Below are positions 34,338 through 37,915 of a stretch of DNA of 43,498 nucleotides, one piece after another. The position numbers were made by a program, and so were the translations under genes. The notes below the pieces were generated by a model that ran no database searches, was not told the DNA's origin, and saw nothing but the letters and a program-made list of their open reading frames with translations. Where the stretch lies: positions 1-43,498 of IMG/VR virus record IMGVR_UViG_3300038454_000027; one strand, given 5' to 3'. This DNA comes from a virus. Numbering within the stretch: the stretch's first letter is position 1; each line of letters begins with the position of its first letter.

Positions 34338-34344
34338 ACTGTTC

Positions 34345-34415
34345 GTCCGGGTGAATGCTGTCTAAGTCTACACAAGGCATCACAGTACGACTTAGACATT
34401 TCTTGTCACCCGGAC
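34345..34415 (+). ncRNA. Y RNA-like RNA 1 (no tRNA module)
   Basis: 71 bases. Outer stem GTCCGGGTGA with TCACCCGGAC (10 bp), then AUGC, inner stem TGTCTAAGTC with GACTTAGACA (10 bp), apical loop beginning UACA, and TTTCTTG on the 3' side. The core (GAAUGC...UUGUC around an outer stem) is the same as in the six other copies and fits the Ro-binding site of Y RNAs. The loop contains GCAT, which could pair with AUGC. Immediately preceded by GTTTAAAC. Confidence 0.7.
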
Positions 34416-34433: not shown

Positions 34434-34520
34434 TCTGCGGCGAATGCCGTTCTGCTGTACAAACTAAGGATTGCAATTCCTTTCGTTGATCAATCAGTAG
34501 AGCAAGATTGTCGCCGCAGA
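34434..34520 (+). ncRNA. Y RNA-like RNA 2 (no tRNA module)
   Basis: 87 bases. Outer stem TCTGCGGCGA with TCGCCGCAGA (10 bp perfect), GAAUGC, an inner stem TTCTGCTG with CAGTAGAG, UACA, and AGATTG before the closing strand. The apical region holds a small AAGGA/TCCTT hairpin. Stems differ in sequence from copy 1 while core bases are the same, which supports selection on structure. Confidence 0.7.
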
Positions 34521-34533
34521 GCAAACTTCTAGA

Positions 34534-34607
34534 CGAAGCGAATGCCATATGGGATTACAACTGGCTCCAAATCAGTGCAACCATCCCATAAGTTTTTTGT
34601 CGCTTCG
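34534..34607 (+). ncRNA. Y RNA-like RNA 3 (no tRNA module)
   Basis: 74 bases. Outer stem CGAAGCGA with TCGCTTCG, AUGC, inner stem TATGGGAT with ATCCCATA, UACA, a small ACTG/CAGT hairpin in the loop, and TTTTTTG before the closing strand. Confidence 0.7.
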
Positions 34608-34627
34608 GCTTGGGGTTTACGACTTGG

Positions 34628-34762
34628 CTAGTCGAATGCTGCTAGTGTCTACAACCAACTTTAGGTTATTGGTTCGAATCCGATCCCGGATCAGAAATGG
34701 GCCGGGTAGCTCAAGTGGATAGAGCGGAAGTTCTCTAACGACACTGCGATATTGTCGACTAG
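34628..34762 (+). ncRNA. yrlA: Y RNA-like RNA 4 with permuted tRNA-like module
   Basis: 135 bases. Outer stem CTAGTCGA/TCGACTAG, GAAUGC, inner stem GCTAGTGTC/GACACTGC with one bulge, UACA. The inserted module has, in order: ACTTT (pairs with GAAGT later), a T-arm with loop TTCGAAT (34668-34684), an acceptor-like stem CCCGG/CCGGG closed by a 12-base loop, and a D-arm GCTC...GAGC with a GG in its loop (34709-34725). This is a tRNA cut open at the anticodon and closed at the acceptor end, the mimicry described for bacterial YrlA. TCTCTAA follows the 5' anticodon strand. Confidence 0.8.
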
Positions 34763-34772
34763 ACTGAACAAC

Positions 34773-34877
34773 GGCGGAGAATGCTCGTAGGTCTACATAT
34801 TTTCATTTCCGAAAATCCCTCACTGCGAGGATCAACTCTCGTTTGGTGTGGATGACTTACTGAATCTTGTCTCCGTC
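34773..34877 (+). ncRNA. Y RNA-like RNA 5 with a non-tRNA module
   Basis: 105 bases. Outer stem GGCGGAGA/TCTCCGTC (one G-T), AUGC, inner stem GTAGGTC/GACTTAC, UACA, and CTTG before the closing strand. The module contains two hairpins (ATTTTC/GAAAAT at 34799-34816; a CCTC/GAGG stem near 34818-34830) and a sequence ATCAACT, which is only faintly T-loop-like. It is either a decayed tRNA-like module or a different one. Confidence 0.65.
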
Positions 34878-35010
34878 ACTGATTTTTGGATGCCCAGAAT
34901 GGGGCGAGGTTAATGGAGCGGGGCGGGCTGGTGTCCATGGTCTGGACCCGTTACCGCATAACAGCGCGGAGAAGGGGCGGAGCCTTCCCCGTTCACCCTT
35001 GAATACAAGG
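34878..35010 (+). other. spacer between RNAs 5 and 6, GC-rich and possibly structured
   Basis: 133 bases, the only long gap in the array. Hairpins GTCCA/TGGAC (near 34933-34947) and AAGG/CCTT within a G-rich run (near 34973-34988) can form. I find neither the GAAUGC/UUGUC core nor a complete tRNA. It could be the remains of an eighth copy. Confidence 0.35.
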
Positions 35011-35143
35011 CTTGGCGAATGCAGGTGTGACTACATTGATCTTGAAAATCAGCGGTTCTGGTTCGAATCCAGGCGCCTCCGCCAAAATGGAGGTGTGGTG
35101 TAATGGTAGCACGTTAGTTGTCACGTCGATTCTTGTCGCCAAG
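35011..35143 (+). ncRNA. yrlA: Y RNA-like RNA 6 with permuted tRNA(Ser)-like module
   Basis: 133 bases. Outer stem CTTGGCGA/TCGCCAAG (8 bp perfect), AUGC, inner stem GGTGTGAC/GTCACGTC (two G-T), UACA. Module: a hairpin TTGAT-CTTGAAA-ATCAG shaped like an anticodon arm (UGA in the anticodon place), T-arm TCTGG-TTCGAAT-CCAGG, CGCCTCC + GCCA + AAAT + GGAGGTG forming a 7-bp acceptor-like stem, then D-arm GTGT...GCAC with GG. The intact GCCA at the end of the 3' strand shows derivation from a real tRNA by circular permutation. Confidence 0.85.
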
Positions 35144-35159
35144 ACGTAAACTATCAGGA

Positions 35160-35294
35160 CGACCCGAATGCTTATTCGGGACTACATCTGTCGGAGATCG
35201 AGGGGTTGGTTCGAGTCCAACAAGCCGCGCCACTATGCGGCTTAGGTGTTCGGGTGAGCACGCGTAAACGTCTCGGATGTTCCTTGTCGGGTCG
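35160..35294 (+). ncRNA. yrlA: Y RNA-like RNA 7 with permuted tRNA-like module
   Basis: 135 bases. Outer stem CGACCCGA/TCGGGTCG, AUGC, a 10-bp inner stem (35173-35182 with 35270-35279), UACA. Module: short hairpin ATCT-GTCGG-AGAT, T-arm GTTGG-TTCGAGT-CCAAC, acceptor-like stem AAGCCGC/GCGGCTT (7 bp perfect) closed by GCCACTAT, D-arm GTGT...GCAC with GGG. GCGTAAAC lies at 35262-35269 and GTTTAAAC directly after the RNA (35300). Confidence 0.85.
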
Positions 35295-35902: not shown

Positions 35903-36325
35903 TTTTTATAGGACGCCCGGTATCACGCGTGGGCCAAAGAAACGCGCGACAAAAAGGCGGATTGGTGGGCGTCTCGGCCCCTCGCCGATCACAAGCTTAT
36001 ATCTGCTGACTTTGGACGAACTGTCATAGCTGGAACTGTGGCAGTGACCCCGGCGCCTTCCAGGCCGCGCCGGGGCCGAATCCGAACTCACACCGAAAGG
36101 TGTGAAAGGCCCGGCCCTAGTGTCGCTCGGATTACATCCCAACGACGCGACAGCACACCGAGGAACCGGGCGCCCGTCGCTTGCACCTGAAGCGGCGGGC
36201 AACCCATAGAAAACCACGGAAAACCGTCCCCCAACGGCCCGTGGAGGCGGCGTCTCTCCTTGCCCAGGGACGCCGCCGACCTTTTCAACCACGTCGGGTA
36301 TGGAACCCGAATGCAAGGAGTCAAG
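35903..36325 (+). ncRNA. structured leader of the Ro60 gene
   Basis: 423 bases without a gene, strongly structured from 36048 to 36277. Stems: CCCCGGCGC/GCGCCGGGG (36048-36075); TCACACC-GAAA-GGTGTGA with a GNRA loop (36088-36105), enclosed by GGGCCG/CGGCCC; TGTCGC/GCGACA (36121-36152); a 9-bp stem at 36172-36200; ACGG-AAAA-CCGT; and GGCGGCGTC/GACGCCGCC (36246-36277). The first two share bases and exclude each other in part. It could be a 5' UTR control element or a separate RNA. I do not match it to a known class. Confidence 0.5.
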
Positions 36326-37915
36326 ATGGCCAACAAATCCCTATTCCAGTCGCGCCCCGGCCGCGCGATCAAGCCGACCGACACGACAAACAACGCAGGG
36401 GGAACGGCATACGCGCTGTCAGACAAGGCTGCGCTTGCCCAGATCGCCATGACGGGGACGCTGCACGATACGTTCTACGTCGGCGCCGAGATGCAACTTG
36501 CCAGCATTCTTGAGGCCGCCGGTAAGTGCGATCCTCTGTATGTGGCCAAGACGGCTGTCTATGCCCGCAAGCGTGGGTTCATGAAGGACATGCCTGCGCT
36601 ACTGGTCGCCCATCTGTCGACGAGGAACGCCGGACCCGTATTCCCGGCCGCCTTTCGCGCCGTCATTGACAACGGCAAGATGCTGCGGAACTTCGTTCAG
36701 ATCATGCGGTCTGGCGTCACTGGCCGGAAGTCGCTCGGCACGAGGCCGAAAAAACTCGTGCAGGGGTGGCTTGAGAACGCCTATGACGACAGGATCATCC
36801 GCGCCATGGTCGGGCAGGATCCGTCCCTGGCCGATGTGATCAAGATGGTCCATCCCAAGGCTCCGACCAAGATGCGGGAGGCTCTGCTCGCCTATATCAT
36901 TGGCCGACCGTATGAGAAGGGCTTTCTCCCCGAGGCTCTTCTGCAGTTCGAGCGGTTTAAACGGAACCCCAATGGCGTTACGCCTGATGTTCCGTTCCAG
37001 ATGCTGACGGCGCAGCCTTTGACAAAGGAGCAGTGGGCGAACATCGGCTTTGACGCCGGATGGCATATGCTACGGATGAACCTCAACACCTTCGCGCGTC
37101 ACGACGCGTTCAAGGTGGACGGATTCGCCGAGTTCGTTGCGGCTAAGATCGCCGATCCGAACGAGGTCAAGCTGGCCAAGGCGTTCCCGTATCAGATCAT
37201 GCTGGCGCATCACATGTGCGACCCGGCTGTCCCTCCAAAGGTCAAAGACGCTCTGTCTGAGGCCATGGAGTACGCGGTGAGCAACGTCCCGGCCCTTGAC
37301 TGCCGTGTCGCCATCTTCCCCGACGTGTCGGGCTCGATGTCGTCGCCTGTCACTGGCTACCGCAAGGGGGCGACGACGACCGTCACTTGCAACGACGTGG
37401 CGGCGCTCATGACGGCGGCGCTGCTTCGGGTCAACCGGGAAGCCGTGGTTATGCCGTTTGAGGGACAGGTCGTTTCAACGCATCGACTCCGGATCAACCC
37501 GCGCGACACGGTGTTCACCAACGCTCGCAAGTTGGCGTCAATCGGTGGCGGGTCGACGCAGTGTTCCGCGCCGCTGGCCAAGATGAATGCGACCGACACC
37601 CGCGCCGACCTTGTTGTGTACATTTCGGACAGCGAGTCGTGGGTTGATTCGGCGAGCCACGGGCGCGGCCTCGTGTCGTGGAACCGTGGAACACAGACCA
37701 TGGTCGAGTGGGAAAAGTTCCGGCAGCGGAACCCGAAGGCGAAAATGGTCTGCATCGACCTGACGCCGAACAGGACGACACAGGCGTCAGGTCATTCTGA
37801 CATTCTCAATGTCGGCGGCTTCTCGGATGTCGTGTTCGACGTGGTGGCGAACTTCGCCAAGGGCTCCCTTGGCGCGGATCATTGGGTCAAAGAGATCGAG
37901 GCGACGACGTTCTGA
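36326..37915 (+). CDS. rsr: Ro60/TROVE-domain RNA-binding protein
   Basis: 529 residues from the ATG at 36326, with AAGGAG upstream; an in-frame ATG at 36260 lies in the leader hairpins. Family length is about 540. Residues 1-320 are the helical-repeat TROVE ring (AEMQLASILEAAGKCDPLYVAKTAVYARKRGFMKDMPALL; later AKAFPYQIMLAHHMC), which holds RNA ends in its hole and Y RNA on its outer face. Residues about 325-529 are a von Willebrand A domain with MIDAS motif DVSGS (near 333), the Thr in GGGSTQ and the acid in YISDSES, all intact. With Y RNA it forms an RNP that steers misfolded RNA to nucleases such as PNPase or shields Ro. Confidence 0.92.
   Translation: MANKSLFQSRPGRAIKPTDTTNNAGGTAYALSDKAALAQIAMTGTLHDTFYVGAEMQLASILEAAGKCDPLYVAKTAVYARKRGFMKDMPALLVAHLSTRNAGPVFPAAFRAVIDNGKMLRNFVQIMRSGVTGRKSLGTRPKKLVQGWLENAYDDRIIRAMVGQDPSLADVIKMVHPKAPTKMREALLAYIIGRPYEKGFLPEALLQFERFKRNPNGVTPDVPFQMLTAQPLTKEQWANIGFDAGWHMLRMNLNTFARHDAFKVDGFAEFVAAKIADPNEVKLAKAFPYQIMLAHHMCDPAVPPKVKDALSEAMEYAVSNVPALDCRVAIFPDVSGSMSSPVTGYRKGATTTVTCNDVAALMTAALLRVNREAVVMPFEGQVVSTHRLRINPRDTVFTNARKLASIGGGSTQCSAPLAKMNATDTRADLVVYISDSESWVDSASHGRGLVSWNRGTQTMVEWEKFRQRNPKAKMVCIDLTPNRTTQASGHSDILNVGGFSDVVFDVVANFAKGSLGADHWVKEIEATTF

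Follow-up and report, generated by a model that had tools for sequence, protein, structure and literature searches.

Circularly permuted tRNA modules retaining a tRNA 3' end in a Ro60-linked Y RNA array of a phage

The closest described relatives of the RNAs analyzed here are bacterial Y RNAs of the YrlA type (RF02553; Salmonella structure 6CU1), in which a Y trunk with the motifs GAATGC and TTGTC carries a tRNA-like module ordered as T-arm, acceptor hairpin and D-arm, with a Ro60 gene adjoining. The Salmonella YrlA structure superposes on tRNA as a circular permutation (PMC11472068), and YrlA receives D by DusA and pseudouridine by TruB and was reported to tether Rsr to PNPase (PMC8394870). 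YrlB (RF02565) is a Y RNA without a tRNA module. Among phages, mycobacteriophages were reported to have Y RNAs, and a Listeria phage was suggested to have them too (PMC12282133). Two other systems share the permuted gene order. In the circularly permuted tRNA genes of algae and Thermofilum the 3' half lies upstream of the 5' half, and those of Thermofilum are described as encoding CCA, with 1 and 7 intervening nt (PMC3218864). The two-piece tmRNA (permuted ssrA) is a bacterial tRNA-like RNA with a circularly permuted gene and a processed precursor. The literature searched, covered as listings and excerpts and with the primary papers Chen 2014 and Wang 2018 lying outside it, showed no account of CCA-bearing Y RNAs.

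The window (the whole stretch of DNA analyzed, a 43,498-base IMG/VR virus record) encodes a terminase, a portal protein, DNA polymerase A and a primase among its genes. Seven RNAs were located between positions 34342 and 35298, and all of them shared GAATGC, a TACA/CTACA motif, TTGTC and a closing trunk (Table 1). A Ro60/Rsr protein is encoded about 1 kb downstream of RNAs 6 and 7. Scanning of its open reading frame from an upstream start at 36260 gave a Pfam vWA_Ro60 match with E 2.7e-15, and a profile of five sequences including the phage Ro60 matched Deinococcus Rsr (PDB 2nvo) at E 3e-101. A first scan of viral records with the single sequence returned no Ro60 relatives. Among the matches listed, the closest Ro60 sequences were bacterial (up to 60%), the top ones being mostly alphaproteobacterial according to record titles, and among the phage records listed that of Myxococcus phage Mx1 was the closest over most of its length (46%). 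Our guess is that the phage host is an alphaproteobacterium. No close DNA relative of the Y RNA array was found among 50,697 phage records, and a promoter scan gave no match, with 1.2 expected. The same record encodes an outer-membrane beta-barrel protein at 39226-40032 (OMP_b-brl, E 3e-12).

Table 1. Positions of the Y RNA units, the parts of their tRNA modules and the Ro60 gene in the window.
Feature	Position	Strand	Remarks
Y RNA 1	34342-34415	+	stem-loop without tRNA module; motif GAATGC...CTACA...TTGTC; fold z-score -6.0
Y RNA 2	34434-34521	+	stem-loop without tRNA module; motif present; fold z-score -5.7
Y RNA 3	34531-34610	+	YrlB-like; Rfam YrlB 23.9 bits, E 0.04; fold z-score -2.9
Y RNA 4	34625-34765	+	permuted tRNA module, GAAA-capped acceptor, without CCA; Rfam YrlA match
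RNA 4 T-arm	34668-34684
RNA 4 3' acceptor strand	34685-34693
RNA 4 GAAA	34694-34697
RNA 4 5' acceptor strand	34698-34706
RNA 4 D-arm	34709-34725
Y RNA 5	34770-34880	+	without recognisable tRNA module; motif present; fold z-score -3.8
Y RNA 6	35011-35143	+	8-bp trunk, 35011-35018 with 35136-35143; Rfam YrlA match
RNA 6 anticodon-like arm	35036-35052	+	5 bp, loop CTTGAAA; pair probability 0.13-0.20
RNA 6 T-arm	35057-35073	+	loop TTCGAAT; pair probability mostly 0.9
RNA 6 acceptor hairpin	35074-35095	+	pair probability 0.99-1.0
RNA 6 3' acceptor strand	35074-35080
RNA 6 G73 and CCA	35081-35084
RNA 6 linker	35085-35088		AAAT
RNA 6 5' acceptor strand	35089-35095
RNA 6 D-arm	35098-35112	+	loop AATGGTA; pair probability about 0.65; nearest tRNA-Gln
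Y RNA 7	35160-35294	+	trunk, 35160-35167 with 35287-35294; fold z-score -3.2
RNA 7 permuted tRNA module	35205-35261	+	every helix part of minimum-energy fold
RNA 7 T-arm	35205-35221		loop TTCGAGT
RNA 7 3' acceptor strand	35222-35228
RNA 7 GCCA	35229-35232
RNA 7 linker	35233-35236		CTAT
RNA 7 5' acceptor strand	35237-35243
RNA 7 D-arm	35246-35261
Ro60/Rsr protein	36326-37915	+	529 aa; Pfam vWA_Ro60; 2nvo profile match

RNA 3 resembles YrlB in being a Y RNA without a tRNA module, although its score lies far under the YrlB gathering threshold of 97. RNAs 4, 6 and 7 each combine the Y motif and an 8-bp trunk with a tRNA module, and in RNA 4 the fold containing this module is nearly as stable as the best fold (-43.9 versus -44.3 kcal/mol). 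The interval 34628-35294, assigned as a whole to CCA-bearing modules by the initial annotation, does hold RNAs 6 and 7, but it begins at RNA 4, which has no CCA. The 129-base spacer between RNAs 5 and 6 (34881-35009) has no Y motif and folds like its shuffles (z-score -0.7); it is perhaps a decayed unit.

The base-by-base check of RNAs 6 and 7 was in agreement with the order first proposed for them, namely T-arm, 3' acceptor strand, GCCA, four bases, 5' acceptor strand and D-arm, as well as with the reported T-loops and the lengths of 133 and 135 bases from trunk to trunk. The acceptor stems, described as perfect or almost perfect over 7 bp, are paired at 7/7 positions in both RNAs, with one G-U pair in RNA 6 and Watson-Crick pairs throughout in RNA 7. 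These features support the assignment of both as Y RNAs whose tRNA modules are circularly permuted and retain the tRNA 3' end. The fold z-score was -1.7 for RNA 6, with 15/200 shuffles folding equally well, and -3.2 for RNA 7. The anticodon arm claimed for RNA 6 is possible as a 5-bp arm but is absent from the minimum-energy fold, which includes the acceptor, T-arm and D-arm; the full cloverleaf costs 2.7 kcal/mol (-43.0 versus -45.7 kcal/mol). Within the array, only RNA 6 has a 7-nt loop with U33 at this place.

ARAGORN called no tRNA gene in place over the window. When rotated into tRNA order, RNA 6 was called as a tRNA, while RNAs 4 and 7 were not. An Rfam tRNA match of 29.7 bits was obtained in place at 35021-35081. 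AATGCAGGTGTG (35018-35029, left Y strand) and AATGGAGGTGTG (35086-35097, RNA 6 linker and 5' acceptor strand) differ by one base, and this near-identity accounts for the match. An unpermuted tRNA at these positions was rejected: it draws on the Y strand for an alternative pairing and is much less stable than the best fold (-37.4 versus -45.7 kcal/mol).

The Rfam YrlA model aligned over its full length with RNA 6 (44.8 bits, E 1.6e-8) and RNA 4 (43.4 bits, E 4e-8). Unlike described YrlA, both stay below the gathering threshold of 69, and RNA 7 had no match in the Rfam search at E up to 1. Ro60-linked YrlA RNAs elsewhere also miss this cut-off, the best match lying above it in 6/10 genomes. At a lax threshold, YrlA matches appeared in 7/14 control genomes, all below the cut-off; these are presumably tandem tRNA genes, since the junction of two tRNAs has the same arm order. 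The circularly permuted order is the normal YrlA order and no sign of a tRNA precursor. It is the retained CCA, as NCCA in register, that is distinctive of RNAs 6 and 7, together with the possible anticodon-like arm of RNA 6. The permuted tRNA genes differ in that the trunk of RNAs 6 and 7 is a Y stem, and inspection of the folds revealed no bulge-helix-bulge junction, the trunk being regular with an asymmetric internal loop instead. In comparison with two-piece tmRNA, a Ro60-linked Y trunk stands in place of the coding piece.

The tRNA-Ser family is class II, with a long variable arm. The Ser-like character ascribed to RNA 6 is true of its loop, in which UGA gives a loop equal to that of a tRNA-Ser, but the body has a variable region of 4 nt and both halves are nearest to tRNA-Gln, and a Ser identity was rejected. 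The best local match of RNA 6 was a Microbacterium phage tRNA (80.7% over 57 nt), which is Gln(TTG) according to ARAGORN and annotated as tRNA-Leu(ttg). Over the full length, tRNA-Phe (75.7%) ties with tRNA-Gln (74.3%), so a Gln isotype for RNA 6 is not certain.

The occurrence of CCA was then compared across YrlA-like modules from other loci. The sample comprised loci of the best 79 of 312 viral and the best 80 of 434 bacterial Ro60 relatives, 38 viral stretches selected by a Y-plus-T-arm pattern that did not require CCA, and 46 loci selected by the YrlA model, which added just 5 new modules with a strict finder. A first finder, covering the window and loci up to L167, yielded 98 distinct modules, 73 of them in the 7-bp tRNA register. 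CCA occupied positions 74-76 in 12 of these 73 as compared with 1.6 in shuffled loops (0/5000 shuffles reached 12), and the count was 0 to 3 at other loop offsets. A second finder, from which two tRNA-rich reference loci were left out, gave 153 modules; 35 that lacked a clear D-arm or had shorter loops were removed ahead of the CCA count, leaving 118 in which a D-arm was present and the loop was 4 nt or longer. In-register CCA was present in 21 of these 118 (6/40 viral and 15/78 genomic modules), whereas shuffled loops had a mean of 2.8 and a maximum of 9, and none of 5000 reached 21. The L128 module with ACCACTAT belongs to the first-finder CCA count and is missing from the second-finder list. 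According to record titles, the bacterial CCA modules came from Alpha- and Gammaproteobacteria, Verrucomicrobia and a Polyangia MAG. The remaining 97/118 modules lack CCA and still keep the fold.

Simple tests of this kind overstate independence because the modules are related by descent. Counting one module per cluster (clusters built on seed identity, values given as averages), the observed versus shuffled numbers were 15.8 versus 1.9 at 80% identity and 7.4 versus 0.7 at 70%, and 5.5 versus 0.5 at 65% and only 1.8 versus 0.17 at 60%. Across the family, CCA in register is far more frequent than expected by chance. A recent origin from true tRNA genes had been deduced from the retained GCCA. 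Since in-register CCA recurs widely across phages and bacterial groups, and RNA 6 shares about 76% full-length identity with the closest tRNAs examined, the retained CCA is not proof of recent origin.

Two further features were associated with CCA, with p-values that ignore the relatedness of the modules. The dinucleotide A(-2)U(-1) preceded the 5' acceptor strand in 10/21 CCA loops and in 13/87 of the other loops with 5 nt or more (p 0.002); for U(-1) alone the numbers were 11/21 and 24/87 (p 0.04). CCA was also more frequent (16/56 versus 5/62, p 0.004) in the anticodon-hairpin spacing class, defined by a T-loop 42-47 bases from GAATG and comprising 56 of the 118 modules. At the anticodon place, 48/56 modules of this class show a hairpin whose loop is 7 nt long (shuffles: mean 27, maximum 38), and 39/56 have one with U33 (mean 7.4, maximum 19). 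The frame U33, A37 and A38 of the loop is kept while the triplet varies. Triplets were tRNA-like in 21/48 as compared with 16.7 in reshuffled columns (maximum 25), showing no excess, and the retention of real anticodons is accordingly unsupported. After rotation to tRNA order, ARAGORN called 32/37 modules of the spacing class and 1/31 of a shorter class; with the anticodon interval shuffled 21.6/37 were still called, so the anticodon arm is only part of the ARAGORN signal.

Ten phage modules with long spacing had a D-arm and a long variable arm of the Leu type (L220, L222, L215, L216, L228, L234, L235, L245, L248 and L250; L040 and L235 are one contig). Both a Leu-like D-arm and long spacing were found in 9 modules, one of the two alone in 1, the other alone in 1 and neither in 107. 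Several of the ten kept the anticodon stem, with the trunk continuing from the anticodon loop, and Ro60 was detected in 7/10 of the records, six by Pfam and the seventh by the Ro60-relative search. Because other phage Y RNAs carry these tRNA-Leu-type modules, sequence comparison suggests that Y RNA modules were captured from tRNAs more than once. The two halves of a module showed modest agreement on the nearest isotype, in 20/132 cases as compared with 7.8 under shuffled pairing (maximum 17, n=2000); the L029 row (49/49 identical) is void in this comparison, its reference tRNA apparently being an ARAGORN call within a Y RNA. A 392-kb phage record, IMGVR_UViG_3300029893_000001 (L228, L229, L237), contains six or more Y RNAs that have T-arms and differ in D-arm type, possibly a set of tRNA mimics. 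Another record, L003 (OR845705.1), is a 1.7-kb contig labelled Escherichia phage in which the end of an rsr-like gene is followed by YrlB and YrlA, and is more likely host DNA than phage. The idea that the CCA of Rhizobiales Y RNAs could not derive from host tRNA genes was refuted, since CCA is encoded in 35/35 tRNA genes read in three alphaproteobacterial genomes bearing CCA-type YrlA. We infer an origin of the CCA-keeping subclass from whole tRNAs; a tRNA gene may have been duplicated in tandem, with the outer halves lost afterwards.

We consider it probable that the array is a phage Ro60-Y RNA system in which RNAs 6 and 7 mimic tRNA while bound to Ro60 and belong to a YrlA subclass that keeps CCA. 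The placement in YrlA is based on the trunk motif in all seven RNAs, the Ro60 gene downstream and the arm order of the Rfam YrlA model. From this arrangement we infer Ro60 binding, with Ro60 predicted to grip each Y RNA trunk at GAATGC and TTGTC, while the far end of RNAs 4, 6 and 7 would fold into a YrlA-type, tRNA-shaped docking module. The rotated order would follow because the Y trunk enters at the opening of the tRNA body between the D-arm and the anticodon arm. The docking module would most likely bring tRNA-recognising partners to Ro60, candidates being the enzymes that modify tRNA, in parallel with Salmonella YrlA, and an effector nuclease, for instance the PNPase of the host. Alternatively, it may compete with cellular tRNA for tRNA-attacking or tRNA-processing enzymes during infection. 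The subclass occurs in bacteria as well as phages and is characterized by NCCA in register, in many cases together with an AU leader or an anticodon-like hairpin.

Cutting of RNAs 6 and 7 at GCCA is possible, and the initial annotation saw in them potential precursors of permuted tRNAs. RNase P and a 3' nuclease would open the acceptor loop at GCCA, giving two pieces joined via the acceptor stem and Y trunk, with a free CCA that might be chargeable or bind EF-Tu in a tmRNA-like way. The in-register CCA occurs with A(-2)U(-1), which was reported to be the best leader for E. coli RNase P (PMC9433436), and a 12-bp stack of T and acceptor stems is available. In bacteria, circularly permuted genes yield two-piece tmRNA, with RNase P and tRNase Z as probable processors (PMC3985003), and the Thermofilum permuted tRNAs likewise encode CCA and have short intervening stretches. 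Against this, just 4 nt separate the CCA from the 5' end, G73 can pair with U(-1), the tRNA isotype is blurred and most modules keep the fold without CCA; whether RNase P and tRNase Z require linear ends was called unknown in a 2014 review (PMC3978253). The association of CCA, AU leader and hairpin keeps such processing alive as an unlikely reading by our judgement, and a Ro60-bound subclass cut at its CCA into nicked, permuted, CCA-ended tRNAs tethered to Ro60 has a comparably small chance of being correct. If true, permuted tRNA would be used here in the manner of tmRNA, and phages would carry sets patterned on several isotypes.

The modules might instead absorb host anticodon nucleases or other tRNA-directed defence enzymes during infection, and the preserved anticodon-loop frame around a variable triplet and the differing tRNA types imitated among phage Y RNAs would fit such decoys. 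The tRNA-like domain of Salmonella YrlA was indeed proposed as a possible competitive inhibitor of an anticodon nuclease, but in the same source that nuclease did not cut YrlA (PMC7790460). RNAs 4 and 7 lack the 7-nt loop with U33, and because bacterial chromosomes carry the same subclass, phage counter-defence would not be the sole role; we regard decoys as an unlikely main explanation. It is somewhat more doubtful that the modules are inert fossils of tRNA genes with GCCA as neutral loop sequence. A module captured from tRNA genes like the 35 mentioned would include CCA, and many YrlA-like loops do without it, but the acceptors of RNAs 6 and 7 are fully paired even though the RNA 6 stem differs from the nearest tRNAs, and CCA is associated with the AU leader and the hairpin spacing class. 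A remnant of a tandem tRNA cluster, with the 3' half of one tRNA next to the 5' half of the following one and no Y role, would show the same arm order and recalls the sub-threshold matches in control genomes. It is very improbable, as every module is enclosed by an 8-bp trunk of its own that bears the Y motif, seven motifs stand in a row and Ro60 adjoins them.

Mimicry of tRNA by Y RNAs was already known, and the question raised by the present array, read as a Ro60-Y RNA system, is how far it extends. The retained CCA is the unusual part, and it is worth asking whether RNAs 6 and 7 are cut or charged like tRNAs. The combination of a CCA end, a leader favoured by RNase P and an anticodon-loop frame makes the handling of Y RNAs by the tRNA machinery directly testable. 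The Leu-type modules suggest repeated construction of Y RNAs from tRNAs, and phages may carry isotype-specific tRNA mimics.
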